Assembly: GCA_913778505.1 (NCBI GenBank)
Contig: CAJYWD010000047.1
Span: 1 to 64,000, forward strand
Source of the DNA: an uncultured Chryseobacterium sp.
GTDB taxonomy: Bacteria; Bacteroidota; Bacteroidia; Flavobacteriales; Weeksellaceae
Reading direction: 5' to 3'
Length of the DNA: 64,000 bases
How positions within the stretch are numbered: the first letter of the stretch is position 1; each line of letters starts with the position of its first letter. Positions 33,852-51,864 of this stretch are shown here, piece by piece. The position numbers and the translations under genes are program-made. The notes under the pieces were generated by a model, which saw nothing but the letters and a program-made list of their open reading frames with translations, was not told the DNA's origin and did not search any database.

Positions 33852-34178
33852 ATGGGCGCAAGCAAGACAGAACATTTTACCGAGCAGCAAAACAGAATTG
33901 CCAGCATCGCAAAAGCTTTAGGGCATCCGGCGAGAATTGCCATCATCGAATATCTGATGAAAGTGAATGAATGCATCTGCGGTGACATCGTGAATGAACT
34001 TCCATTGGCTCAGCCAACCGTTTCACAACATTTAAAAGAACTCAAAAACGCGGGAATCATTAAAGGAAATATCGAAGGTAATTCAATTTGCTATTGTATT
34101 GATGAAAAAGCGATTGAAGTTCTGAATACGTACTTTTCAAAAATCATCGAAACTGTTTCGAAAGCAAAATGCTGTTAA
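33852..34178 (+). CDS. ArsR-family transcriptional regulator
   Basis: CICGDIVNELPLAQPTVSQHLKELKNAGIIKG. Confidence 0.93.
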   Translation: MGASKTEHFTEQQNRIASIAKALGHPARIAIIEYLMKVNECICGDIVNELPLAQPTVSQHLKELKNAGIIKGNIEGNSICYCIDEKAIEVLNTYFSKIIETVSKAKCC

Positions 34179-34194
34179 AAAAATTATATTATTC

Positions 34195-34212
34195 AATCGT
34201 AATATTGCAATA
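34195..34212. promoter_or_regulatory. Predicted ArsR operator, site 2
   Basis: Second exact copy of AATCGTAATATTGCAATA upstream of the 34238 gene. Confidence 0.6.
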
Positions 34213-34237
34213 AAACATTAATTAAAAATCAAAAAAT

Positions 34238-34702
34238 ATGACTCTTGAACAAATCAAACAAATTCTTCCAACATTGGATAATGTAGAATTTCAGCTGGAA
34301 AACGGAACTTTTGTGCCGGAACATTTTCACGTGACAGAAGTGGGACAAATCACCAAAAACTTTATTGATTGCGGTGGAACAATTCGTACCGAAAAAGTGG
34401 TGAATTTCCAGCTCTGGAATGCCGATGATTACGACCATCGCCTTAAACCTGGAAAATTACTTAACATTATCAGACTATCGGAAGAAAAGTTGGGTATTGA
34501 AAATTCTGAAATCGAAGTGGAATATCAAAGCGAGACTATCGGCAAATATGATTTGGAATTCAACGGAAAACATTTTATTCTTAAAAATAAAACAACGGCT
34601 TGTCTGGCTCAGGACGCTTGTGGGATTCCGACAGAAAAAACAAAAAGGAATTTATCCGAGTTAAGTTCTAACTCCTGTGCTCCCGGAAGTGGTTGTTGTT
34701 AG
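34238..34702 (+). CDS. DUF6428-like protein (ars-associated)
   Basis: Between arsR and arsC; C-terminal Cys-rich tail NSCAPGSGCC. Confidence 0.75.
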   Translation: MTLEQIKQILPTLDNVEFQLENGTFVPEHFHVTEVGQITKNFIDCGGTIRTEKVVNFQLWNADDYDHRLKPGKLLNIIRLSEEKLGIENSEIEVEYQSETIGKYDLEFNGKHFILKNKTTACLAQDACGIPTEKTKRNLSELSSNSCAPGSGCC

Positions 34703-35130
34703 ATAAAAAAGTGATGAGTAAAAAAATCTTGGTGCTTTGTACGGGAAACAGTTGCAGAAGCCAAATTGCAGAAGGTTATCTCAGACATTTTGCAAAAGAA
34801 AAAGCCGAAATCTACAGTGCAGGTGTCGAAACTCATGGTGTGAATCCAAAGGTCATTGCGACAATGAAAGAAGATGGAATCGACATTTCCAATCACACTT
34901 CTAATAACATCGAGGAATATAAAAACATCGACTTTGATTTTGTCATTACGGTTTGTGATAACGCCAAAGAGCGATGTCCATTTTTTCCCTCCAAAGCTGC
35001 AAAATTTCACCATAATTTTCCTGACCCTGCAAAAGCTATCGGTACTGAAGAAGATATAATGAAAGAATTTAGATATGTCAGAGAACAAATCAAAAATTAT
35101 TGTTTTAAATTCGTGAAAGAAAATCTTTAA
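34693..35130 (+). CDS. arsC: Arsenate reductase, LMW-PTP type (start likely 34714)
   Basis: VLCTGNSCRSQIAEGYLRH; VCDNAKERCPFFP. Confidence 0.92.
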   Translation: MLLDKKVMSKKILVLCTGNSCRSQIAEGYLRHFAKEKAEIYSAGVETHGVNPKVIATMKEDGIDISNHTSNNIEEYKNIDFDFVITVCDNAKERCPFFPSKAAKFHHNFPDPAKAIGTEEDIMKEFRYVREQIKNYCFKFVKENL

Positions 35131-35622: not shown

Positions 35623-35658
35623 AAAAAAGTCTGAACAATTTCAGACTTTAATTTTTTT
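35623..35658. terminator. Bidirectional terminator
   Basis: AAAAAAGTCTGA-acaatt-TCAGACTTTaaTTTTTTT. Confidence 0.75.
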
Positions 35659-37112
35659 TATTGGGCAATTTTCTCTTTCAAATCCTTGATGTATTTCTTC
35701 AATTCTTTGTCGATTTTGGAAACATCCCGGATGGTGTCGCAAGCGTACATCACCGTCGAATGGTCTTTCCCGCCCATTTCTTCACCAATTTTTGTAAACG
35801 TTGCATTGGTATATTCTTTTGCGAAATACATTGCGAGCTGTCTAGGCAAAGCAATTTCTCTCTTCCTGGTCTTAGACAACAACTGCTCTCTCTGGATTCC
35901 AAAATAATCGCAAACAACCTCCTGAATATAAGGAATGTTGATGGTTTTTTTCTGAGTGGTGGCTAATTTATTGATTGTATCTTTTAACAAATCAAGACTG
36001 AAATCAGATTTGTAAACCGTTGAGTAAGCAATTACGGCATTTACAACGCCAATCAGCTCTCTCACACCGTTGGTCTTGACTTCTGATGCCAGGTAATCCA
36101 GCATATCGTCTGTCAATTCTATACCGTCTCGGCTTAATTTATCAACAATGATTTTACGTCTGGTTTCGAAATTTGGCGATTTGATTTCTGCAGAAAGTCC
36201 CCATTTGAAACGGGAAATAATCCTTTCCTGCGTATCCAGAATATCGGCAGGAGCTTTATCGGAAGTCAAAATAATCTGTTTTCCGTTCTGATGAAGATAA
36301 TCGAAAATATGGAAGAAACTGTCCTGCGTTGCTGCCTTACCGGACAAAAACTGAATATCATCGATAATCAAAACATCGATCATCTGATAATAGTTCTGGA
36401 AATCTGTTTTGTTCTGAGACTTCGCAGCCTTTACAAAATCCTGGATGAATTTTTCCGAAGACTGATATAGAACCACTTTTTCCGGAAAAGAAGCTTTCAC
36501 TTCCAATCCGATTGCCTGAGCCAGGTGTGTTTTTCCAACGCCGTAACCACCGTATACAAACAGTGGATTAAATGCTGTGGAACCTGGTCTTTTTGCAATC
36601 GATTTCGCAACGGTGCAGGCAAATTTATTGCTTTCGCCTTCTACAAAGTTATCAAAGGATTGGTCTGCTTTCAGGTTAGAATCAATGTTGACTTTTTTGA
36701 TTCCCGGAACCACAAAGGGATTCACGTTATTATCTTTCAGAACCGGTCTGGCTTCCTGGATTTTCGGTGCTTGTGTGGAGATACCTTTTACATTAACCGT
36801 AATAGGCTTTTCTTTTCCTGCAGGTTTATTTTCCATTACGGAATACCACAATTTCACACCTTTACCGATATTTTTCTTGAGTGCAGCAGACAGCAGAGAC
36901 AGGTAATTGTCCTCGATGTATTCTTTGTAAAAATCACTAGGAACCAGCAACGTCAGATTATTGTTCACCAAAGAAATTGGCTGAACTTTGTCAAACAATA
37001 AATCAAAAGAATTTTCTAATTTTTTGAGGTCTGTGTTGTCCTCCGCTGCGTTTAGATTATCCCTCATAAACTGAAGGCATCTATCCCAGATAAATACTAA
37101 ATTTTCGTCCAT
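35658..37112 (-). CDS. dnaA: Chromosomal replication initiator protein DnaA
   Basis: NPLFVYGGYGVGKTHLAQAIG, IDVLIIDDIQFLSGK, DHSTVMYACDTI DnaA signature. Confidence 0.97.
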   Translation of the reverse strand: MDENLVFIWDRCLQFMRDNLNAAEDNTDLKKLENSFDLLFDKVQPISLVNNNLTLLVPSDFYKEYIEDNYLSLLSAALKKNIGKGVKLWYSVMENKPAGKEKPITVNVKGISTQAPKIQEARPVLKDNNVNPFVVPGIKKVNIDSNLKADQSFDNFVEGESNKFACTVAKSIAKRPGSTAFNPLFVYGGYGVGKTHLAQAIGLEVKASFPEKVVLYQSSEKFIQDFVKAAKSQNKTDFQNYYQMIDVLIIDDIQFLSGKAATQDSFFHIFDYLHQNGKQIILTSDKAPADILDTQERIISRFKWGLSAEIKSPNFETRRKIIVDKLSRDGIELTDDMLDYLASEVKTNGVRELIGVVNAVIAYSTVYKSDFSLDLLKDTINKLATTQKKTINIPYIQEVVCDYFGIQREQLLSKTRKREIALPRQLAMYFAKEYTNATFTKIGEEMGGKDHSTVMYACDTIRDVSKIDKELKKYIKDLKEKIAQ

Positions 37113-39543: not shown

Positions 39544-41529
39544 ATGAAATATGACTTACTCTTAAATGAAAATACTGACAGTAAAATCATTAATAGATAT
39601 TATTTATTTGGAGATAATAACATTATACGATTCTTACCAAATATTAATTCTATAAACATCTTTATTGGTGCTAACAATAGTGGAAAAAGCTGGATGATGA
39701 GACACCTAATGAAAATTCAAGATTTTCAATATGTTTTAAATGAACTATTAATAATTTCTAATTCTTTCAATAAACTATTAAAAAAAAATATTTATGCTCA
39801 ACAAAGAAGGGATTTATGGAGTACATCCTTTACAGCACCAAATATAAGAATAGAAAAACTGGACACTTCTTCTTTTTCTAATATCATTTCTACTTCATCC
39901 AATAATAAAGACAATTTTATCCAACTTATTAATTTTAATTATTGGGAACATTTTGATGTTGAAATCGACCCAAATGAAATATCTAAGTTAGATGCTATTA
40001 ATAATAAAATCATTGAGACTATAAAGCAAAACAAAAAAACAGAAAATGTAATAAAATATTTCATCCCTACCTTAAGAACGGCTCATTCTCTATATAACTC
40101 TGATGGAAATAAGATAGAAGATGATATTTTTTATAATACACTTCAAATAAATCATCCAACTGAGAATGTAAAAACGTTCACTGGATTACATTTATACAAA
40201 TCAATATTAAACGCAAGAAATGCAAGAAAAGAAATCCGAAAAAGGTTTGAAGATTTTGAAACGTTTGTACAAAATAATTTTTTCAGTGGAAAAAAGATTG
40301 ATATTGTTGCGGAATTTGACAAGGACAAAAGCTTAAATGGAGATAATTCTGGAGAAATAATAACAATTCATATTGATGGCGAAAATGACACAAGAAAATT
40401 ATATGAACTCGGAGACGGGATACAGGCTATTATTATTTTAATGTATCAAATATTTATGGCGGAAAATGATTCTATAATTTTTATTGATGAGCCAGAACTA
40501 AATCTTCACCCAGGAATGCAAAGGTTATTCTTTGAGCAAATTTCATTAAATAACGACATTACTAAAAAAAATCTGACTTATTTTATCTCCACACATTCAA
40601 ATCATCTATTAGATTTAACATTAGAAAGCGACAACGTTTCAATTTATTCCTTCAATCCAATTGTTGAAAAAGGAAATAAAAAAATCATTATAAAAAATGT
40701 CAATTCGGGAAATAATGAATTATTAAAGGATTTAGGTGTTAACAATACATCAGTATTTCTTGCCAACTCAAGTATTTGGGTCGAAGGAATTTCTGACCGC
40801 AATTATATTAAATCATTTTTGAGAGCCTATTGTGATGATGATAACAAAAGAAACTATCCTAAAGAAGATATTGATTTCGCCTTTTTCGAATATGCTGGCG
40901 GAAATATAGAACATTACATTTTCGGAGACGAATTGGATGAAATTGATGATGATGAAAAATTTTTAAAAGAGATAAACACTTTAGCTCTATCCAATAAAAT
41001 TTTCCTATTCGCAGATTCTGATATGGCAAAAGAAGGAACTAAAAAATTTGAGAGATTGAAATTGCTTGAAGAAAAATTCTCTGCGAATAATAATTTAGAA
41101 GGATTGATAATTAGAAATATACGAGAATCTGAAAACCTTTTATCAATAGAAGTTTGGAGAAAAATTTTGATTGAATTTTGTAATAAAAAAGACATAACAG
41201 GAGAAACTCAAAATGAGATTGATAATTACTTTTCGACTATATCAGAACTGAACCAGACAGAATATGTTGGTAAATTTTTGAAAAAAATAAAAGATTCTGG
41301 AATCCCCTTAAATGAAGTTGCAAAAAAAATACCTAGAGGCGGTGGAAAAGAATGGCAAACATTCAAAGACAAGGCTTTTCTCAGTAGAATCATTCTTGAA
41401 AAAACATTAAATAAAGAATTAACTTGGGATGATTTCAAAACTGTTCCTGAAGTTGTTGAATTAACTGAAAAAATATATCAATTCATTCTAAAACGTGGAA
41501 AGAATATGCAAATCCATAACCTAGATTAA
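39544..41529 (+). CDS. OLD-family ATPase with C-terminal TOPRIM nuclease domain
   Basis: Walker A GANNSGKS; IIFIDEPELNLHPGMQ; FISTHSNHLLD; TOPRIM motifs SSIWVEGISDRNYIKSFLRAY and KIFLFADSDMAKEG. Confidence 0.88.
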   Translation: MKYDLLLNENTDSKIINRYYLFGDNNIIRFLPNINSINIFIGANNSGKSWMMRHLMKIQDFQYVLNELLIISNSFNKLLKKNIYAQQRRDLWSTSFTAPNIRIEKLDTSSFSNIISTSSNNKDNFIQLINFNYWEHFDVEIDPNEISKLDAINNKIIETIKQNKKTENVIKYFIPTLRTAHSLYNSDGNKIEDDIFYNTLQINHPTENVKTFTGLHLYKSILNARNARKEIRKRFEDFETFVQNNFFSGKKIDIVAEFDKDKSLNGDNSGEIITIHIDGENDTRKLYELGDGIQAIIILMYQIFMAENDSIIFIDEPELNLHPGMQRLFFEQISLNNDITKKNLTYFISTHSNHLLDLTLESDNVSIYSFNPIVEKGNKKIIIKNVNSGNNELLKDLGVNNTSVFLANSSIWVEGISDRNYIKSFLRAYCDDDNKRNYPKEDIDFAFFEYAGGNIEHYIFGDELDEIDDDEKFLKEINTLALSNKIFLFADSDMAKEGTKKFERLKLLEEKFSANNNLEGLIIRNIRESENLLSIEVWRKILIEFCNKKDITGETQNEIDNYFSTISELNQTEYVGKFLKKIKDSGIPLNEVAKKIPRGGGKEWQTFKDKAFLSRIILEKTLNKELTWDDFKTVPEVVELTEKIYQFILKRGKNMQIHNLD

Positions 41530-41792: not shown

Positions 41793-42920
41793 ATGGAGTT
41801 TTTTCTGACATCAGAAGATAATGATGACCGAGCGATTTTTATTACGGGAAATTTCAACAAATGGAATCCGAAAGATTCTAAGTTCATGTTAGAAAAATTG
41901 AATGAGAATAATTATTACATCAATATTTCCGACGAAATTTTGAATGAAGAAATCGAATACAAATTCACAAAAGGCGGCTGGGAAAACGTAGAAATTGACC
42001 AATATGACAACATCACTCCGAACAGAAAAACAAAAAAAGATAAGAAAAAAACTCAGGATTGTGTCGAAAAATGGAGACTGAACTGGGGACCATTCAAGCA
42101 GGAATTTTTCCCGATTGTAGAATTGGCAGACGAAGCATTTTACATTCCTCAGCTCGACAAAACCAGGAAAGTCTGGGCACTTTTGCCTTATGATTATTAC
42201 GATTCCGGGAAGAGCTATCCGGTTTTGTATCTTCAGGATGCGCAAAATTTGTTTAATGAAGGTTCGGCTTACGGGAATTGGGAAATCGACAAAAAACTGT
42301 CTTTGCTTGCAGAATATGGCCGTGGAGATCTAATCGTTATCGCGGTGGAACACGGTGAAGATGACCGAATCAAAGAATATATTTTTGATAATGAAGATGT
42401 GACGAAGAATGCCCAGGGAAAAAAATACCTCAGGTTTATCACCGATACTTTGAAACCTTGGATTGATAAACATTACAGAACTAAAAAAGACAGGGAAAAC
42501 ACAGGAATCGGAGGAAGTTCTCTAGGCGGATTGATAAGTATTTATGGCGGTTTTCTTTACCCGGAAGTCTATTCCAAACTGTTGATTTTTTCTCCATCGC
42601 TTTGGGTAGAGCCGGAAAATGATTTTCCGATGATAAACTTCACCAATCCTTACAAAATTAAAGTTTATCTCTACGGTGGCAAAAAAGAAGGTTCCCGAAT
42701 GGTGGGTAGAATCCGGTTATTTGAAAAGGCTTTGAAACAATTAAGCGCCCGGAGAATTTTTGATTTTGAAGTCAGAACCAATATCAATGACCAGGGAACA
42801 CATCAGGAATTTTTCTGGTCGCAGGAATTTCCAAGAGCGGTGGAATGGCTTTTCATCGACAGTCTGGAAAGTCCTGTAAAAGCCAAAAATGAATTGGAAA
42901 ATGAGATAAAAAATAAATAA
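41793..42920 (+). CDS. Alpha/beta hydrolase (Fes/IroE esterase-like) with N-terminal CBM48/early-set-like domain
   Basis: DRAIFITGNFNKWNPKDSKFMLEK; GIGGSSLGGLISIYGGFLYPEVYSKLLIFSPSLW nucleophile elbow. Confidence 0.85.
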   Translation: MEFFLTSEDNDDRAIFITGNFNKWNPKDSKFMLEKLNENNYYINISDEILNEEIEYKFTKGGWENVEIDQYDNITPNRKTKKDKKKTQDCVEKWRLNWGPFKQEFFPIVELADEAFYIPQLDKTRKVWALLPYDYYDSGKSYPVLYLQDAQNLFNEGSAYGNWEIDKKLSLLAEYGRGDLIVIAVEHGEDDRIKEYIFDNEDVTKNAQGKKYLRFITDTLKPWIDKHYRTKKDRENTGIGGSSLGGLISIYGGFLYPEVYSKLLIFSPSLWVEPENDFPMINFTNPYKIKVYLYGGKKEGSRMVGRIRLFEKALKQLSARRIFDFEVRTNINDQGTHQEFFWSQEFPRAVEWLFIDSLESPVKAKNELENEIKNK

Positions 42921-43030
42921 GTCACGAAGTGACGATGCAACAAAGAATAGGATAAAATTTTATTAATGCATCAATAGCGTCGGGTTTTAGCCCGATGTAA
43001 AATTAAAGATTGTAGTTGGCTTTAGCCAAA
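42921..43030. repeat. Intergenic multi-hairpin repeat region
   Basis: GTCAC-gaa-GTGAC; CGGGTTTTAGCCCG; TTGGCTTTAGCCAA. Confidence 0.65.
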
Positions 43031-43042
43031 ATTTAAAAATTT

Positions 43043-44452
43043 ATGATTAAAATTAACAATAAAAAAGTATCAACAGCACAAAACATACATCTGTTCAGCG
43101 AAGCCGACTGGGAACAGGAAAAAAGCTCGTATCCTAACGTAGAATTATTCTTCAACGGAAAAAAGAACGAGGTTTTCGTCAAAACAGATTCTGATAAAGT
43201 GAGTTTTTTCATTGGAATCGGGAAAGCTGCAAAAGGATTTGAAATACAAGCAATTGCCAATAAATTTGCGAATGATTATAAAAAAAATCTACAGGCAGTT
43301 CCAACTTCGGTTTGTTCCAATTTAGGATTGGATTTGACGGAAGAATTGGTGAAAGGCTTGTTTTTGGGAACTTACCTCTACCCTTTTGAGAAATCTCATG
43401 CGTTTTGGCAGGAGAATTTTGAACTTCATTTTGAAAATATTTCTGAGGAAGAAGGAAACAATTTAGCTTTAAAAACAGAAGCGCTCTGTAACGGCCAATT
43501 TGCCGGAATGGAATGGCTGAACAAACCTGCTAATCATAAAAAGGTTCATCAAATCTCAGATTTTCTGAAATCAACGGCAGAGAAATATGGTTTAAAATAT
43601 AAATCCTTCAACAGAGAAGAATCCATTAAAGAAGGTCTTGGGGCGTTTGTAGCTGTCAATCAAGGGAGTTCGCAGGAAGCGGCTTTCACAATTCTGAAAT
43701 ACAACTGTGGAAAAGCCGATGCAAAAACTTTCGGATTGGTAGGAAAATGCGTTCTCTTTGACACAGGTGGAATTTCCATCAAACCGTCTGATAATATGCA
43801 TTATATGAAGAGCGACATGGGCGGCGCAAGTGCTGTTATCGGCGCCTTGATTACCGCTTCGGAACTGAAACTTCCGGTCAATATCATCGCTATTCTCCCG
43901 ATTACGGATAATGCGGTTTCGGAAAATGCGTATCTGCCGAGCGACGTCGTGACAGCTTACAACGGAAAAACGATTGAAGTCCTGAACACCGATGCAGAGG
44001 GCAGAATGACTTTGGCAGACGGACTTTCTTACTTGTCAAAAAACTATAAAACTGATGTTTTGATAGATCTGGCAACGCTCACAGGAAGTTCGGTCAGAAT
44101 GTTTGGCTACACTTGTGGTGCCTATTTCTCGAACAACAGTGATTTGAAAATAAAGCTGGAAAAATCTGCCGATAAAACCAATCAGCGACTATGGAATCTG
44201 CCGCTTTGGGATATTTGGAAAGACGATTTCACATCGGACGTTGCAGATTTCAAGAATATCTCCATGAAACCTTTCGGAGATTGCATTATTGCCGGGAAAT
44301 TTTTGGAACAGTTTATAGAAGGACATCAGAATTGGGCGCATCTCGATATTGCCGGCGTTGCTTTTGGGAATGTCGGTTATGCTAAAGATAAAATGGCGAC
44401 AGGTTATGGTGTGCAGCTATTAGTGGACTTTATCGAAAATTATAATATTTAA
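43043..44452 (+). CDS. M17-family leucyl aminopeptidase
   Basis: GKCVLFDTGGISIKPSDNMHYMKSDMGGA, NTDAEGRMTLADGLSY. Confidence 0.95.
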   Translation: MIKINNKKVSTAQNIHLFSEADWEQEKSSYPNVELFFNGKKNEVFVKTDSDKVSFFIGIGKAAKGFEIQAIANKFANDYKKNLQAVPTSVCSNLGLDLTEELVKGLFLGTYLYPFEKSHAFWQENFELHFENISEEEGNNLALKTEALCNGQFAGMEWLNKPANHKKVHQISDFLKSTAEKYGLKYKSFNREESIKEGLGAFVAVNQGSSQEAAFTILKYNCGKADAKTFGLVGKCVLFDTGGISIKPSDNMHYMKSDMGGASAVIGALITASELKLPVNIIAILPITDNAVSENAYLPSDVVTAYNGKTIEVLNTDAEGRMTLADGLSYLSKNYKTDVLIDLATLTGSSVRMFGYTCGAYFSNNSDLKIKLEKSADKTNQRLWNLPLWDIWKDDFTSDVADFKNISMKPFGDCIIAGKFLEQFIEGHQNWAHLDIAGVAFGNVGYAKDKMATGYGVQLLVDFIENYNI

Positions 44453-44467
44453 ATAAAAACTAAAACT

Positions 44468-44773
44468 ATGAATTCAAATTTTCAAAATGAATCGGGACAA
44501 AATCCTCAACACATCATTATTAATCAGGTAGAGAAACAAACGAACGGCATTGGAACTGCCGGATTTGTACTCGCACTGATTGCGATTTTCTTAGGCTGGG
44601 TTCCATTTTTGGGACAATTAATTTGGTTTCTAGGCTTGATTTTTTCGTTTGTGGGCATTTTTAAAAAACCAAAGGGATTGGCTGTTGCCGGTCTGGTAAT
44701 TTCCTTAATTGGAATTGTACTTCTCATTTTTGTCTTTAGCGCTTTTGCAGCAGCCGCAGCAATAAGTCATTAA
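44468..44773 (+). CDS. DUF4190-like small membrane protein
   Basis: GTAGFVLALIAIFLGWVPFLGQLIWFLGLIFSFVGIFKKPKGLAVAGLVISLIG. Confidence 0.8.
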   Translation: MNSNFQNESGQNPQHIIINQVEKQTNGIGTAGFVLALIAIFLGWVPFLGQLIWFLGLIFSFVGIFKKPKGLAVAGLVISLIGIVLLIFVFSAFAAAAAISH

Positions 44774-44826
44774 CGCTTCTTAACTATCAAATCAGTATAG
44801 AAGAAAATTAACACAATGAATTGAAT

Positions 44827-46032
44827 ATGGAAAAAACGATTGTCTGTATCTCTTGTTATTACAAAGGCTATGATTTTATGGACGAGTGCAAAAAACTCGG
44901 GAATAAGGTCATTCTCATTACCTCAGAAAACCTGAAAGAGAAAAACTGGCCTTGGCACGCCATAGACGAGGTTTATTATATGCCGGAGCTAGAACCTTCC
45001 GTTTGGAATCTTGACCATTTGGTTCAGGGATTTGCATATTTAATGAAGGACCATCAGATTGACGCCGTGATTGCATTGGACGATTTTGATGTGGAAAAAG
45101 CGGCAATGATTCGCGAAACCTACCGTATTCCGGGAATGGGACAGACAACGCATCGTTATTTCCGGGATAAGCTGGCAATGCGCCAACAGGCTAAGGACAA
45201 TGATATTTCTGTGCCGGAATTTTCCTCGATTTTTAATGATGCAAAACTTCATCAGTTCACGCAAGATGTTCCCGGACCTTGGGTTCTGAAACCACGTTCC
45301 GAAGCTTCCGCAAGCGGCATCAAGAAAATCAATTCGGCCGATGAACTTTGGCCGGCTGTGGAAAATCTGGGCGATGAACGTTACAAATTTCTTTTGGAAT
45401 CTTTCAAACCCGGCGATGTTTATCACGTGGATTGTTTGGTTTATAATAAGGAAATTGTGTTTTCCTGCTTTTCTAAATACCTCTCTCCACCGATGAAAGT
45501 TTCCCACGAGGGCGGTGTTTTCCGGACCAAAACTCTGGATAAAACTTCTGAAGAAGCCAAAGGTTTGGATGAAATCAACAAACAGGTTTTAGACAAATTC
45601 GGAATCCGAAACGGAGCCACTCACAGCGAATATATCCGGGGAACAGACGGACGGTATTATTTCCTCGAAACGTCTTCCAGAGTGGGCGGCGCGCACATTC
45701 CCGATATGGTGGAGGCGGCAACAGGCGTCAATATCTGGAGAGAATGGGCAAAATTGGAAAATGCACTTTTGGACGGAACTCAATACTCGGTGGAGGAAAC
45801 CCAGAAATTATTTGGCGGATTGATCATCGCACTGGCAAAGGAGAGACATCCCGACACTCACAATTTGCAAAGCGAAGAAGTGGAAAAATTTTTACCAATC
45901 GATTATCACGTCGGGATTGTCTACAAAGCAAAAACGGCAGATATCATTGAAGAAAGACTGGACCAAGCTGCAGAAATTGTCACGCAACAGATTCTGAATA
46001 TCCTGCCTCCGAAAGACAAACCGACGAGTTGA
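44827..46032 (+). CDS. ATP-grasp ligase (carboxylate-amine ligase superfamily), no. 1
   Basis: PWVLKPRSEASASGIKKI; GRYYFLETSSRVGGAHIPDMVEAATG. Confidence 0.9.
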   Translation: MEKTIVCISCYYKGYDFMDECKKLGNKVILITSENLKEKNWPWHAIDEVYYMPELEPSVWNLDHLVQGFAYLMKDHQIDAVIALDDFDVEKAAMIRETYRIPGMGQTTHRYFRDKLAMRQQAKDNDISVPEFSSIFNDAKLHQFTQDVPGPWVLKPRSEASASGIKKINSADELWPAVENLGDERYKFLLESFKPGDVYHVDCLVYNKEIVFSCFSKYLSPPMKVSHEGGVFRTKTLDKTSEEAKGLDEINKQVLDKFGIRNGATHSEYIRGTDGRYYFLETSSRVGGAHIPDMVEAATGVNIWREWAKLENALLDGTQYSVEETQKLFGGLIIALAKERHPDTHNLQSEEVEKFLPIDYHVGIVYKAKTADIIEERLDQAAEIVTQQILNILPPKDKPTS

Positions 46033-46109
46033 GTTTAAGGTTTAAGATTCAAGGTTCAAGGTTCAAGGTTCAAAATTTAAAGTTCATTATTCATCATTTA
46101 TCAATTATA
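46033..46109. repeat. 7-bp-period array upstream of esterase start
   Basis: gtttaag gtttaag attcaag gttcaag gttcaag gttcaaa atttaaa gttcatt attcatc atttatc aattata, then ATG at 46115. Confidence 0.8.
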
Positions 46110-46114
46110 AAAAA

Positions 46115-46829
46115 GATGCCTCAAATAACACATACAGATTATTATTCTCATATTCTCGGGATGAGCCTTCAGGTCGAGGTTACAGGCCATTTTGGTTATC
46201 CGGTTATTATGTTCCCGACGTCGCAGGGTTCTTACACGCAGAATGCCGATTTTCATTTGAACGGAAGCATTTCCCATTTTACCAACAATGGAATTTTGAA
46301 ATTATTTAATGTTCAGACGATTGATAAACTCAGTTTTTACGACAAAGGTATTTCGCCCTATGAACGAATCCGGAATTATGAAATGTACGTTCAGTTCCTG
46401 GTTCAGGAGTTCATTCCTTATATCCAAAGAACACACAACACACATCGTGTAGCGGTTGCCGGCGCAAGTTTCGGAGGTTATCACGCAGCGAATTTTGCGT
46501 TCCGTTTTCCCGATTTGGTGTCGCATCTTTTTTGTTTGTCCGGCGCTTTTTCTATCCGGAGTTTTATGGGTGGCTATGATGACCAGCTGATTTACTTCAA
46601 TTGCCCGGACGAATTTGTGAAGAATGACGAAGCCTGGAAATACAAACATATGCACATCGTGCTCAGCACATCCGACCGTGATATTTGCCTGGAGTCGACA
46701 AGAAAAATGGCAGGGATTTTAACATCAAAAGGAATCAATCATTGGTATGATGAACAAAAATGGATAGACCACGATTGGGTGCTTTGGCGAATGGTTTTCC
46801 CGACATTCATCGGTAGATTTTTCGGGTAA
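46115..46829 (+). CDS. Esterase family protein (alpha/beta hydrolase)
   Basis: MPQITHTDYYSHILGMSLQVEV; HRVAVAGASFGGYHAANFAFRFPDLVSHLFCLSGAFS. Confidence 0.9.
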
Positions 46830-46977
46830 AATTTGCCAAAAATTAAAATCGTCAAGATGTAAAACTGTAAAATTGTTAAGATTTACAAACAATATTCAAG
46901 TGATTGGACAAAACAACAATTTAGCGATTCATCAACTTAAAAAATCAACTTACTAACAAATAAACAAATCATAAATT

Positions 46978-47928
46978 ATGGCAAAAAAAATTGGAATTTT
47001 ATTCGGAATGGAAGACACATTTCCGTGGGCTTTTATCGATAAAGTTAATGAATTGGGCAAAGGCGAATATATCGCAGTACCTGTCCAAATCGATAAACTG
47101 GAACAAGGTGCAGATTATGGCTACGCTGTGATCATCGACAGGATTTCTCAGGACGTTCCTTTCTACAGAGCTTATCTTAAAAATGCGGCGGTAAATGGAA
47201 CTTACGTCATCAACAATCCTTTTTGGTGGAGTGCAGATGAGAAATTCTTCAACAACGCATTGATGTCAAAAATCGGAATTCCGTTGCCGAAAACGGTTTT
47301 GCTACCTTCACACGAAAGACCAACCAACACTTCGGAAACCTCGTTCAGAAACCTGAAATTTCCTCACGATTGGGAATACATTTTTAATTATATCGGATTT
47401 CCGGCTTATATGAAACCACACGATGGCGGCGGCTGGAGAAATGTGTACCGTGTTGAAAGTCCGGAAGATATGTGGGCAAAACACGCTGAGACAGAGCAAT
47501 TGGTAATGATGGTTCAGGAAGAAATTGTCTTTGAGGATTATTACAGAGTGTATTGTCTGGGAAGGAAATATGTTCACATTATGCCTTATGAACCAAGAAA
47601 TCCGCATCATCTAAGATACGCAACCACGCATCAGACCGAAGGAAAAGAACTCGAAAAACTGTTAAAAACCATTACAGATTATACCATTAAAATGAATGAA
47701 GCGCTTGGTTATGATTTCAACACGGTAGAATTTGCTGTGAGAGATGGAATTCCTTATGCGATTGACTTCTGTAATCCGGCTCCGGATGCGGACAGAAACT
47801 CTGTGGGCGAAGAAAATTTCCAGTGGATTGTGGAACACGCCGCAAAGCTGGCCATTGAAAAAGCTAAAGATTACGAACCCGGAAAAATCAATATCGATTG
47901 GGGAACATTTGTAACCAACAAACTTTAA
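46978..47928 (+). CDS. ATP-grasp (RimK-like) ligase, no. 2
   Basis: FPAYMKPHDGGGWRNVYRV; NTVEFAVRDGIPYAIDFCNPAPDAD. Confidence 0.88.
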   Translation: MAKKIGILFGMEDTFPWAFIDKVNELGKGEYIAVPVQIDKLEQGADYGYAVIIDRISQDVPFYRAYLKNAAVNGTYVINNPFWWSADEKFFNNALMSKIGIPLPKTVLLPSHERPTNTSETSFRNLKFPHDWEYIFNYIGFPAYMKPHDGGGWRNVYRVESPEDMWAKHAETEQLVMMVQEEIVFEDYYRVYCLGRKYVHIMPYEPRNPHHLRYATTHQTEGKELEKLLKTITDYTIKMNEALGYDFNTVEFAVRDGIPYAIDFCNPAPDADRNSVGEENFQWIVEHAAKLAIEKAKDYEPGKINIDWGTFVTNKL

Positions 47929-47980
47929 AACTTAACTAACTTAAATATTTAATGATATAATTTGAAGCGTTGAATCATTC

Positions 47981-48113
47981 GCAGCCCGACTTATCTCACA
48001 TTTGTTTATTTTTTATATGAATTGATGAATATCGTTCCTCGATTTGAGCGGAAATCCTTTTTAGGCAATGTACTGGAGTGAAAAGATGTGGAGCGGAAGG
48101 CGGATAAAGCTGC
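47981..48113 (+). ncRNA. Dispersed structured element, copy E (with ~50-nt insertion in 5' arm)
   Basis: GCAGC-CCGACTT...[insert]...TTTGAGCGGAAATCCTTTTT...GAAAAGATGTGGAGCGGAAGGCGGATAAA-GCTGC. Confidence 0.55.
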
Positions 48114-48197
48114 CCAAACCTAACAAAGTGTTTCGATGAAATCAAATTATATCATGAATTTAATTTACTACTAACTTTAACTAACACAAGAAAAAAA

Positions 48198-49301
48198 ATG
48201 CACAGATTCACAATAGGCGTGGAAGAAGAATACCAAATCATCGATGCGGAAAGCCGTGATTTGGTGTCTCACGTTTCCAAAATAATAGAAGGCGGAAAAG
48301 CCGTTCTCAGCGAAAATTTAAAACACGAGATGCACGAGTCGGTTGTCGAAATGGAAACAGGCATCTGTGAAAACATTCAGCAGGCGCGTCAGGAATTGAC
48401 CGACCTCAGGAGACATCTTGTAAAAACGGCTCACGAACAAGGCCTTAGAGTTTCCGGCGGAGGAACACATCCGTTTTCCCACTGGAAAGACAATGTCATT
48501 ACCAAAGATGCGCGTTACGACAAAATCGTAAGCGATATGGGCGATGTCGCCAGGTCTAATCTGATTTTCGGATTGCACGTTCACATCGGGATTCCTGATC
48601 GTGAAGAAGGCATCAGAATCCAGAATGTGATGCGTTACTTTTTGCCACACGTTTATGCTTTGTCCACCAATTCTCCGTTTTGGGTTGGAAGATTAACAGG
48701 TTTCAAATCATATAGACAGGAAGTTTTTGCCAAATTCCCAAGAACCGGATTGCCAAGCTATTTCAGCAGTGTGGCGGAATTTGATGCCTATGTCAATCTG
48801 ATGGTAAAAACCGGAACCATTGATAATGCCAAGAAAATCTGGTGGGATTTGAGGGTTCATCCTTTCTACCCTACGATTGAGTTCAGGATTTGCGATATGC
48901 CTTTGACGATTGATGAAACGGTTTGCCTGGCGGCAATTATGCAGGCTTTGGTGGCAAAAGTTTACAAAATGCACCAGCAGAATACAAGTTACAGAAGTTA
49001 CAGAAGACTGCTTCTGACGGAAAACAAATGGCGCGCTTCCAAAGACGGCATTGATGCCCATCTGATTGATTTTGGTAAAGAAGCGAGTGTTCCATATCGT
49101 GACCTTTTGGAAGAATTACTGTTATTCATAGATGATGTTGTTGATGATTTGGGCTGCCGTAAAGAAGTCGAATATGCCCGGGAAATTGTCAAAATGGGAA
49201 CCGGTGCAGACAGGCAGCTTAAAGTCTTCCACGAAAGCGGTGGCGATATGAAAAAGGTGGTGGATTATATGATTTATGAGACGGAGAAAGGTCTGCTATA
49301 G
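48198..49301 (+). CDS. Carboxylate-amine ligase, YbdK/GCS2 family
   Basis: FTIGVEEEYQIIDAESRDLV; SNLIFGLHVHIGIPDREEGIRIQNVMR; WWDLRVHPFYPTIEFRICDMP. Confidence 0.95.
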   Translation: MHRFTIGVEEEYQIIDAESRDLVSHVSKIIEGGKAVLSENLKHEMHESVVEMETGICENIQQARQELTDLRRHLVKTAHEQGLRVSGGGTHPFSHWKDNVITKDARYDKIVSDMGDVARSNLIFGLHVHIGIPDREEGIRIQNVMRYFLPHVYALSTNSPFWVGRLTGFKSYRQEVFAKFPRTGLPSYFSSVAEFDAYVNLMVKTGTIDNAKKIWWDLRVHPFYPTIEFRICDMPLTIDETVCLAAIMQALVAKVYKMHQQNTSYRSYRRLLLTENKWRASKDGIDAHLIDFGKEASVPYRDLLEELLLFIDDVVDDLGCRKEVEYAREIVKMGTGADRQLKVFHESGGDMKKVVDYMIYETEKGLL

Positions 49302-49304
49302 ATT

Positions 49305-49339
49305 TTGGTTGTTGGTTGTCAGTTAATTGTTGTCGGTTT
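49305..49339. repeat. 7-bp-period array
   Basis: ttggttg ttggttg tcagtta attgttg tcggttt. Confidence 0.55.
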
Positions 49340-49425
49340 GTAATAGTAGATTAGACTGAAATAGTTTTAGTTCTCCACAGATAAATTTTAGAATTTTATT
49401 AACTTTTCATCAATTCTAGATTCCG

Positions 49426-49433
49426 TATTTTTG
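49426..49433 (+). promoter_or_regulatory. -7 element (TATTTTTG)
   Basis: Matches TAnnTTTG upstream of GATase gene. Confidence 0.4.
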
Positions 49434-49442
49434 TAAAAATTT

Positions 49443-50285
49443 ATGAATATGAGTAAAAATGATGTAAGAATTGCACTTCTTGATATGAATAACAACCATC
49501 CGAATCAAGGGATGAGAAACATCAAAGAGCTGTCGAAAGCATTTCAGGAGCAGTCGGAACACGAGGTTTCTGTGGAGCTTTTTGATGTCCGTTATAAAAA
49601 TGAGATACCCAATATTGAAGATTTTGATATTTTTATTTCGTCCGGCGGACCGGGAAATCCGCACCGTGAAGGTTATGAATGGGAACAGAAATTTGCTGAT
49701 TTCCTAACACAAATCTGGGGACATAACAAAACTAATGAACAAAAAAAATATCTGTTTTTAGTTTGCCATTCTTTCCAACTGGCGGTGATTCATTTCGGGA
49801 TTGCGAATGTCTGCAAACGTAAATCCTACTCTTTCGGTGTGATGCCCATTCATAAATCGGAAGACGGCGAAACGGAATTTTTGTTCAAAAATCTGCCAGA
49901 CCCTTTCTACGCAGTAGATTCCAGAGCTTACCAATGTATCGAGCCCAATCAGGAAAAACTGGATGAGCTGGGAATGAAAATCGTGGCCTTGGAGAAAATC
50001 CGCCCGACCGTTCATCTGGAAAGAGCGATGATGGCCGTTCGTTTCTCTGATGAGATTTTCGGAACGCAGTTTCATCCGGAAGCTGACCCGCTTGGTTTCA
50101 TCAAAAATCTGGAAGATGAGAAAAATAAGGAAGCGATGATTGAAACATTCGGGATGGAAAAATACCTCGAAACCATTGACAGAATGGATGATGACGACAA
50201 AATCGTGTTAACCAGAGCGCAAATCATCCCAAGATTTTTGCAACAGGCTTCTGAACAAATTACGAAAAACTTAATATTCGGTTAA
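49443..50285 (+). CDS. Type 1 glutamine amidotransferase
   Basis: FDIFISSGGPGNPHREGYEW; LFLVCHSFQLAVIHFG nucleophile elbow with Cys; GTQFHPEADPLG. Confidence 0.9.
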   Translation: MNMSKNDVRIALLDMNNNHPNQGMRNIKELSKAFQEQSEHEVSVELFDVRYKNEIPNIEDFDIFISSGGPGNPHREGYEWEQKFADFLTQIWGHNKTNEQKKYLFLVCHSFQLAVIHFGIANVCKRKSYSFGVMPIHKSEDGETEFLFKNLPDPFYAVDSRAYQCIEPNQEKLDELGMKIVALEKIRPTVHLERAMMAVRFSDEIFGTQFHPEADPLGFIKNLEDEKNKEAMIETFGMEKYLETIDRMDDDDKIVLTRAQIIPRFLQQASEQITKNLIFG

Positions 50286-50350
50286 TTTTCTAGTACAATG
50301 TATTTTGTACAATGTAAAAAGTATAGATGTATAATGTACTTTTTTACATG

Positions 50351-50395
50351 CATACATTTTACATCCATACATTTTACATCCATACATTTTACAAT
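50351..50395. repeat. Three tandem 15-bp repeats
   Basis: (CATACATTTTACATC)3, just upstream of ATG at 50404. Confidence 0.88.
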
Positions 50396-50403
50396 CAAAA
50401 ACT

Positions 50404-51585
50404 ATGATTCCAAAATACAGAGCTCAATTCAACCAAGAATTCTCTCAGGAAAAATATCAAAAAGTCAATGAACTGATCAAAGAAAAATGTGGTTATGAAG
50501 CCGCGTTTCGACTTTCTGAGAGCCCGATTTTCCTTAGCAAAGATTTTCAACACAAGCTGGATGATGCTTGTCAGTCGATTATTTCGCAAATCAAAGCAAT
50601 GTCTGATGAAGAACTCAGCAAAGCTATTCCCGCGAATTGCAACGTACCGAATGACACTCAAAAACCACATTTTGTGGCCATCGATTTTGGAATCTGCCAG
50701 GATGAAAATGGCAACGTGATTCCGCAGTTGATAGAATTGCAGGCTTTTCCGAGCTTGTTTGGATTTCAGAAGTTGTTTGAAGAGGTGATTACCGAAGTTT
50801 ATCCTTTTCTGAATGAACTGAAAGACTCGCTTCCGAAAGATGAATACATCAAAAAGCTGAAACAAGTGATTGTTGGAAATGAAAATCCGGAAAATGTGAT
50901 TCTCCTGGAAATCTATCCTGAAAAGCAAAAGACTCTAATTGATTTTGTTCTGACAGAGCAATATCTCGGCATCAAAACGGTTTGCCTCACGAAAATCAAG
51001 AAAGAAGGTAAAAAATTATTCTACGAAAAAGAAGGCAAATTAATCCCTATCAATCGGATTTATAATCGTGTGATTTTTGATGAATTGGATAAGATCGAAG
51101 GTTTGGAAACAGAATTTGATTTCCGGGAAGACATTGATGTCGAATGGATTACGCACCCAAATTGGTTTTTCAAAATTTCAAAATATATTCTTCCAAAACT
51201 GAAACACGAGTTTGTTCCGAAAAGTTACTTCTTACCAGATTTTTCTGGAAATGAATCATTGGAGAATTTTGTTTTAAAACCACTTTTCTCTTTTGCAGGA
51301 AGCGGCGTGAATCTGAATCCAAGCCAGGAAATCATTAACTCAATTGAAGATAAAGAAAATTATATCTTACAGAGAAAAGTGACTTATGCACCACTATTTG
51401 AAGACATCAACGGAGAGTTTTCCAAAGCAGAAATCCGTTTACTTTTTGCGTGGAATCCTGACGAAGAAAATCCTGAACTTTTCGTAAATCTTGTAAGAAT
51501 GACCAAAGCCGCCATGGTGAATGTGGACTTCAACAAGAAAGATGCGATTTGGATCGGGAGTTCTATGGCGTTTTTTGAATCTTAA
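50404..51585 (+). CDS. ATP-grasp-like protein, no. 3 (glutathionylspermidine-synthase-like fold suspected)
   Basis: FVAIDFGICQDENGNVIPQLIELQAFPSLFGFQ; NFVLKPLFSFAGSGVNLNP; EIRLLFAWNPDEENPELFVNLVRMTKAAMVNVDFNKKD. Confidence 0.7.
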   Translation: MIPKYRAQFNQEFSQEKYQKVNELIKEKCGYEAAFRLSESPIFLSKDFQHKLDDACQSIISQIKAMSDEELSKAIPANCNVPNDTQKPHFVAIDFGICQDENGNVIPQLIELQAFPSLFGFQKLFEEVITEVYPFLNELKDSLPKDEYIKKLKQVIVGNENPENVILLEIYPEKQKTLIDFVLTEQYLGIKTVCLTKIKKEGKKLFYEKEGKLIPINRIYNRVIFDELDKIEGLETEFDFREDIDVEWITHPNWFFKISKYILPKLKHEFVPKSYFLPDFSGNESLENFVLKPLFSFAGSGVNLNPSQEIINSIEDKENYILQRKVTYAPLFEDINGEFSKAEIRLLFAWNPDEENPELFVNLVRMTKAAMVNVDFNKKDAIWIGSSMAFFES

Positions 51586-51597
51586 GATTTTTAATTT

Positions 51598-51864
51598 ATG
51601 AAAAATTCCTTTATACTGGGCGGAATACTTTTAGTCTGCCATCTGTCTGCACAAAAGCTGCCTGCAAAAGATTCTGTAGTCGCAGCCGTCAACGGCTCTG
51701 CCAAAAGTTCTACATATAATCTGACGCCGGACACCAAAATACTGGACAATAAAAAGTTTCATTTTGAATGGATGAGGCCTTCAAAGAGTGTATACCGAGA
51801 TAATTTCACCAATCGACTGTATTTCCAGAACGGATTTGACAGAACGAAAATCATTACTAACTAA
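51598..51864 (+). CDS. Small secreted hypothetical protein
   Basis: Signal peptide MKNSFILGGILLVCHLSAQ; 88 aa. Confidence 0.6.
   Translation: MKNSFILGGILLVCHLSAQKLPAKDSVVAAVNGSAKSSTYNLTPDTKILDNKKFHFEWMRPSKSVYRDNFTNRLYFQNGFDRTKIITN

Follow-up and report, generated by a model that had tools for sequence, protein, structure and literature searches.

A 64,000-nucleotide stretch of DNA from an uncultured Chryseobacterium sp. (contig CAJYWD010000047.1; hereafter, the window) carries, on the plus strand at 41793-51585, eight genes that, on a check of the open reading frames (ORFs), encode eight enzymes: four that make amide bonds and four hydrolases. The former are three ATP-grasp ligases (AG1, AG2 and AG3) and a carboxylate-amine ligase (GCS2); the latter are two esterases (Est1 and Est2), a metallopeptidase (M17) and an enzyme of the glutamine amidotransferase (GATase) fold (GAT). 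In this report, we found that these eight genes are inherited together in roughly a third of the Bacteroidota sampled; thus, they very likely constitute one metabolic pathway. Further, we lean modestly toward a specific form of this proposal, in which a single pathway of two modules (Est1-M17-AG1 and Est2-AG2-GCS2-GAT-AG3) synthesizes and breaks down a small amide-linked metabolite with neither a nonribosomal peptide synthetase (NRPS) nor a ribosomal precursor, and in which GAT is one of the hydrolases.

Conservation, co-occurrence and slot exchange

A preliminary description of this DNA had proposed that gene order be compared across the Bacteroidota. We did so in 60 genomes from across the phylum, using ~18 kb surrounding AG3, and in 80 named loci around AG2, the AG2 loci coming from Weeksellaceae, Flavobacteriaceae, Cryomorpha, Saprospiraceae, Cytophagales and Mucilaginibacter. 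The order is indeed conserved: AG2 is followed by GCS2-GAT-AG3, on the same strand and in that exact order, in 61 of the 68 named loci with enough sequence. Est2 lies directly upstream of AG2 in 63 of 76 loci, and an alpha/beta hydrolase intervenes in 6 more. Est1-M17-AG1 is a second conserved module. AG1, with M17 and an esterase, lies upstream on the same strand in Weeksellaceae, and Polaribacter and others have it downstream on the other strand; in four genomes (loci L193, L197, L211 and L212) the three genes form a separate run elsewhere in the genome, as M17-AG1 does in a fifth. M17 adjoins AG1 in other families too, and AG1 stands alone, without its module neighbours, in many other genomes. 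In the AG2-locus comparison the label Est1 pools low-identity esterases, so the divergent one that precedes Est2 in many genomes may be something other than an orthologue of the window's Est1.

Five of the proteins were used as queries against one set of 299 Bacteroidota genomes, and strong matches were counted: 92 genomes for AG3, 108 for AG2, 103 for GCS2, 70 for GAT and 66 for AG1. AG2 and AG3 occur together in 89 genomes, with AG3 only in 3 and AG2 only in 19, and AG2 and GCS2 share 91. AG1 is found only together with AG2 (66/66), and GAT is accompanied by AG2 in 69 of its 70 genomes. A strong match to Est2 is present in 40 of 40 AG2-positive genomes tested, versus 1 of 40 AG2-negative ones. 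A close AG2 exists in 104 of the 299 genomes (~35% of the sampled Bacteroidota), and the carriers include relatives of Chryseobacterium, Elizabethkingia, Dyadobacter, Maribacter and Algoriphagus. Several lineages have the genes dispersed around the chromosome, yet they co-occur; in one genome (G043), AG2, GCS2, AG3 and AG1 are hundreds of kilobases apart. Therefore, shared neighbourhood alone cannot explain the co-occurrence. The preliminary description had allowed that the genes might prove not to co-occur in relatives, but order and co-occurrence are kept across Bacteroidota families, even when the genes are unlinked. It is hardly conceivable that these are unrelated housekeeping genes that became neighbours by accident: nothing but the loose spacing in the window speaks for that view, and the conserved order and the phylogenetic profiles, strict also for unlinked genes, exclude a chance grouping.

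The 19 genomes that have AG2 and lack AG3 are instructive. Four of them have only a divergent AG2 (34-40% identity), whereas the other 15 all encode another ligase of about 450-480 amino acids, which lies between AG2 and GAT in the loci inspected (L172-L183, from a group of Bacteroidota families). This substitute is a circularly permuted (CP) ATP-grasp protein of type 2 (CP_ATPgrasp_2, PF14403; 37.3 bits against a cut-off of 32 for the L172 protein, with that of L173 below the cut-off). A close copy of it is absent from all of 41 genomes that have both AG2 and AG3, one of which encodes a 37% relative elsewhere. A close AG2 is thus always accompanied by either AG3 or the substitute (89+15 = 104/104), a natural case of two different ATP-grasp families replacing each other at one operon position.

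Another exchange involves GAT. In five genomes, all without GAT, the slot between GCS2 and AG3 is occupied by an M29 aminopeptidase, and a sixth GAT-less genome has the M29 enzyme elsewhere; no close M29 copies were found in 41 GAT-positive genomes. GCS2 directly abuts AG3 in four genomes (G225, G051, G035 and G070), where GAT is located elsewhere. The exchange of GAT and M29 in one slot favours a hydrolase role for GAT.

The hub ligases AG2 and AG3

Neither AG2 nor AG3 belongs to a Pfam family above its cut-off; their ATP-grasp nature, as the preliminary description had it, is established by profile and fold. AG2 (46978..47928, +; 316 amino acids) is the RimK-like hub gene of the cluster (NCBIfam rimK_fam, E=2.7e-8). 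Its relatives are 53-98% identical, the closest being AG2 of Epilithonimonas arachidiradicis (98%); the window thus probably derives from Epilithonimonas or a close relative of that genus. The NCBIfam links to RimK/LysX are sub-threshold, and AG2 scores 33.5 bits against the RimK family TIGR00768, whose cut-off is 143.4. A structural model (predicted local distance difference test (pLDDT) score of 82, lower in the glycine-rich loop) was compared with known structures using Foldseek. It retrieved RimK, ArgX, LysX, Ddl and PsnB (E about 1e-11 to 1e-13), as well as the ATP-grasp ligase of a ribosomally synthesized and post-translationally modified peptide (RiPP) from Chryseobacterium. The model is about as similar to D-Ala ligases as it is to RimK, ArgX/LysX and graspetide ligases, so the fold fixes no substrate class. 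In the alignment of relatives, K146, E251, D263 and N266 are invariant or nearly so, and AG2 has long invariant motifs of its own: RISQDVPFYR, NNPFWWSADEKFF and NPAPDAD.

These characteristics bear on two alternatives. One, which we consider unlikely but worthy of attention, is protein modification: AG2 would add amino acids to the C-terminus or side chains of a protein, the other ligases would extend this tag, and GAT, M17 and M29 would remove it. There is precedent for protein tags being put on by ligases and taken off by peptidases, and the fold of AG2 is near to those of RimK and ArgX/LysX. Further, AG2 is, GCS2 apart, the most conserved core protein, as expected of an enzyme that binds a conserved macromolecule (mean column identity 71%, versus 70% for GCS2 and 52-56% for AG3 and GAT, each computed on a different set of rows). 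However, no gene for a conserved target or carrier protein resides in the cluster, and GCS2 and ligases with the glutathione-synthetase fold are usually small-molecule enzymes. The other alternative, graspetide-like maturation of a ribosomal peptide, we judge to be highly improbable. PsnB and the Chryseobacterium RiPP ligase are among the fold matches of AG2, and the substrate could be the 88-residue protein encoded at 51598 or another small ORF. Yet the loci of relatives, even close ones, conserve neither the gene at 51598 nor that at 44468 (for 44468, tblastn found no match), and we rejected both as precursor or substrate; the preliminary suggestion that the 88-residue secreted protein might be a substrate is therefore unsupported. 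The AG2 loci that were inspected have no conserved family of small ORFs, in agreement with the earlier remark that no precursor gene is obvious, and the clusters contain neither a conserved transporter nor a conserved leader peptidase.

AG3 (50404..51585, +; 393 amino acids) has the glutathione-synthetase/GspS/YgiC fold in its AlphaFold2 model (pLDDT 91). The best Foldseek matches are the glutathione synthetases of yeast and human, YgiC, YjfC, GspS and trypanothione synthetase (TryS), with E from 1e-14 to 1e-9; the soybean glutathione synthetase and Cp1B match too, and all 22 of the 22 Protein Data Bank chains at E<=1e-3 belong to the glutathione synthetase/GspS/YgiC superfamily. At the level of the profile, AG3 falls short of Pfam GSP_synth (17.3 bits versus a cut-off of 29.3). 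Residues D94, E111, Q113, K292, E343 and R345 are invariant or nearly so among relatives; E111 and Q113, part of a putative metal-site motif (E-L-Q), are kept in 131 of 131. As a separate observation, the unlinked AG3 of distant families adjoins a conserved YtcJ-like amidohydrolase of ~490 amino acids in six loci (L079, L081, L087, L089, L090 and L091).

Partner enzymes and the proposed pathway

The remaining families named in the preliminary description (both esterases, M17, GCS2, GAT and AG1) score above their Pfam cut-offs. GCS2 (48198..49301, +; 367 amino acids) is a clear YbdK/GCS2 family member, with 532.7 bits against NF010039 (cut-off 371), 309.7 against TIGR02050 (176.4) and 229.5 against PF04107 (21). 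NCBIfam assigns it to PRK13515/YbdK, it is the sole copy in the genome, and it aligns over nearly its full length to the YbdK-type structures 1r8g and 1tt4. Together with AG3, it raises the question of a glutathione-like low-molecular-weight thiol, for which GCS2 would act as a gamma-glutamylcysteine ligase and AG3 as a glutathione synthetase analogue, with M17 and GAT degrading the product. GCS2 lies within the gamma-glutamylcysteine ligase superfamily, and glutathione synthetases are the nearest solved folds to AG3. We nonetheless find a thiol pathway improbable. BshC, of bacillithiol synthesis, is encoded in 79 of 80 genomes, AG2-positive and AG2-negative alike; there is thus no thiol gap for the cluster to fill, and a replacement for bacillithiol is ruled out. 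Further, YbdK of E. coli, from the same family, is annotated merely as a putative Glu-Cys ligase, some lineages do without GCS2, and a thiol pathway leaves AG1, AG2 and two esterases unaccounted for.

GAT (49443..50285, +; 280 amino acids) has the class-I GATase fold (PF00117, 44.1 bits versus 22.8), and its Cys108-His211-Glu213 triad is invariant in 98 of 98 relatives. The cluster has no classical ammonia-accepting synthase, and the slot shared with the M29 peptidase argues for a hydrolase. The pairing of GCS2 with a class-I GATase parallels a ligase and a gamma-glutamyl hydrolase, and one could envision a catabolic or detoxifying route in which ligases gamma-glutamylate amines and GAT releases glutamate, as PuuA and PuuD do for putrescine. 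Fold relatives of AG3 use spermidine (PMC12568646), in keeping with such a route. But the genes conserved with the cluster include no oxidase, dehydrogenase, transporter or transaminase, and three further ATP-costly ligases are hard to reconcile with degradation. We hold amine catabolism to be very unlikely.

The other module opens with Est1 (41793..42920, +; 375 amino acids; PF00756, 88.4 bits versus a cut-off of 22), followed by the leucyl-aminopeptidase-type M17 (43043..44452, +; 469 amino acids; PF00883, E=6e-101) and AG1 (44827..46032, +; ~401 amino acids). AG1 exceeds the cut-off of ATP-grasp_4 (PF13535, 33.9 versus 27 bits). Its NCBIfam matches to DdaF, PRK02186 and PRK07206 are all sub-threshold (DdaF, 38 bits versus 840), and similarity weakly suggests a ligase of the L-amino-acid-ligase kind. 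Est2 (46116..46829, +; 237 amino acids) is an alpha/beta hydrolase that, like Est1, scores above the PF00756 cut-off. Its nucleophile lies in GASFGG, and the catalytic residues are retained in relatives (Ser in 95/97, Asp218 in 99/99 and His248 in 98/99, numbered on the 266-residue ORF). The eight ORFs lie on the plus strand at or near the positions first reported, with two starts corrected: AG1 probably begins at ATG 44827 and Est2 at ATG 46116, in line with its relatives of ~237 amino acids, the TTG at 46029 being an extension by the ORF-caller.

The joint retention of four ligases, each from a different family, and four hydrolases fits the building and turnover of a compound with several amide bonds. 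From the observed linkage, co-occurrence, folds, catalytic motifs and displacement patterns, we infer all substrates and the order of steps as follows. GCS2 would form an acyl phosphate at the side-chain carboxylate of glutamate or a similar acid and then link that carboxylate to an amine, and AG3 would extend or cap this product at its carboxyl side. AG2, of the RimK/Ddl type, and AG1 could form further amide bonds, adding further residues. GAT, and likewise M29, would hydrolyze gamma-glutamyl or related amide bonds rather than supply ammonia; M17 would clip amino-terminal residues; and the two esterases may act on a group held by an ester or thioester bond, either cleaving it off or exchanging it. 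On this reading, the metabolite is probably a gamma-glutamyl or amine-capped small peptide. By analogy with the relatives of AG3, a polyamine such as homospermidine is our guess for the amine used by AG3. The preliminary description had likewise envisioned the building and processing of a gamma-glutamyl compound or small peptide. That idea is consistent with the folds and with the recurrent pairing of ligases and hydrolases, but the DUF4190-like gene and the 88-residue protein are no part of it.

Several facts weigh against our two-module proposal. GCS2 is the more dispensable ligase: it is absent in G037, G064, G159 and G179 and in eight genomes with the substitute ligase, and the gamma-glutamyl step is thus not universal. 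The core run in the window has ~80-270 bp between genes, which makes co-transcription less than certain. Nor is any dedicated exporter or regulator kept alongside the cluster. Finally, two results that speak for the proposal, the Fisher P values for co-occurrence (1e-19 to 1e-52) and the correlated divergence of the five core proteins (r=0.78-0.89), take no account of common descent.

Surroundings of the cluster

A small membrane-type protein of 101 amino acids (44468..44773, +) is encoded within the run. The label DUF4190, given to it initially, found no support, as the protein matches no Pfam family; it is not a conserved member of the cluster. A promoter scan gave 30 matches versus 28.6, nothing beyond chance. 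Terminator-like matches (20 versus 9.2) fall mostly within genes and therefore do not delimit an operon. We also considered and rejected a phage or defence origin: the cluster proteins tested had no match in PHROG, seven of them (M17 left out) had none among the PADLOC anti-phage defence models, and AG2 was not found on plasmids.

Directly upstream of the cluster, 39544-41529 encodes an OLD-family-like AAA ATPase with AriA/GajA/PtuA-like PADLOC matches (best E=7e-18), a possible defence ATPase with no recognised partner. By eye, 33852-35130 holds a small arsenic-resistance-like run (an ArsR-like regulator, a 154-residue protein of no known kind and an ArsC-type low-molecular-weight phosphatase), after which comes a GNAT acetyltransferase. 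A dnaA-like gene, also recognised by eye, lies at 35658-37112 on the minus strand, and a replication origin may be near. In other genomes, one locus (L187:4347-9893) has TetR, HlyD and MFS efflux genes on one strand between AG2 and GCS2, possibly for product export in that genome. In one distant family (L185, L186 and L189), an aromatic amino acid lyase follows AG2 and an S10 serine carboxypeptidase follows GCS2, another ligase-peptidase pairing.

Comparison with known systems

The families are individually known. A search of the open literature, which did not extend to the 2009 amidoligase survey by Iyer et al. (Mol Biosyst 5:1636), found no description of the set, of its core (Est2, AG2 and AG3 or the substitute) or of its near-perfect co-inheritance. 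That survey reportedly predicted many amidoligase/peptidase operons, with linked ATP-grasp ligases, GS-like ligases and peptidases as a theme. It may already predict this neighbourhood, and we therefore do not call the cluster categorically new; we class it with the NRPS-independent amide-ligase pathways. It supplies four uncharacterised stand-alone amide-bond-forming enzymes, including two hubs that Pfam does not capture, and, given its breadth among Bacteroidota, the pathway lends itself directly to gene deletion and comparative metabolomics. We suggest, tentatively and at less than even confidence, that these four ligases produce a phylum-typical gamma-glutamyl or polyamine-capped oligopeptide (a core metabolite, protectant or signal) in environmental Bacteroidota, with the core of Est2, AG2 and AG3 or the CP ATP-grasp ligase in practically every pathway genome.

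Among known systems, the closest to GCS2 is E. coli YbdK, but ybdK has no cluster partner nearby in E. coli. AG2 is like RimK, LysX and ArgX in fold and in part of its sequence; it differs in scoring below every family cut-off, in its own invariant motifs and in having no carrier protein. AG3 shares its fold with YgiC/YjfC and with the glutathionylspermidine and trypanothione synthetases, along with a weak sequence match at its 'VLKPLFS..G' region; unlike YgiC/YjfC and GspS, it lies under the GSP_synth cut-off and is accompanied by three other ligases. E. coli YgiC and YjfC are reported to be peptide-spermidine ligases, and fungal Cp1B to couple an amino acid with an epoxy diacid; all three are reported amide ligases that act on free acids or peptides (PMC12568646). 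The putative metal site reads E-x-N in Cp1B and E-L-Q in AG3, if the two sites correspond as they appear to. In the dapdiamide (DdaF), bacilysin (BacD) and fungal E-64 (Cp1B/Cp1D) pathways, stand-alone ATP-dependent ligases likewise build a short pseudopeptide without an NRPS; AG1 resembles DdaF, and AG3 resembles Cp1B in fold. In contrast to those systems, the cluster has regular GCS2, GATase and M17/M29 partners, no warhead-making enzyme and a phylum-wide spread.

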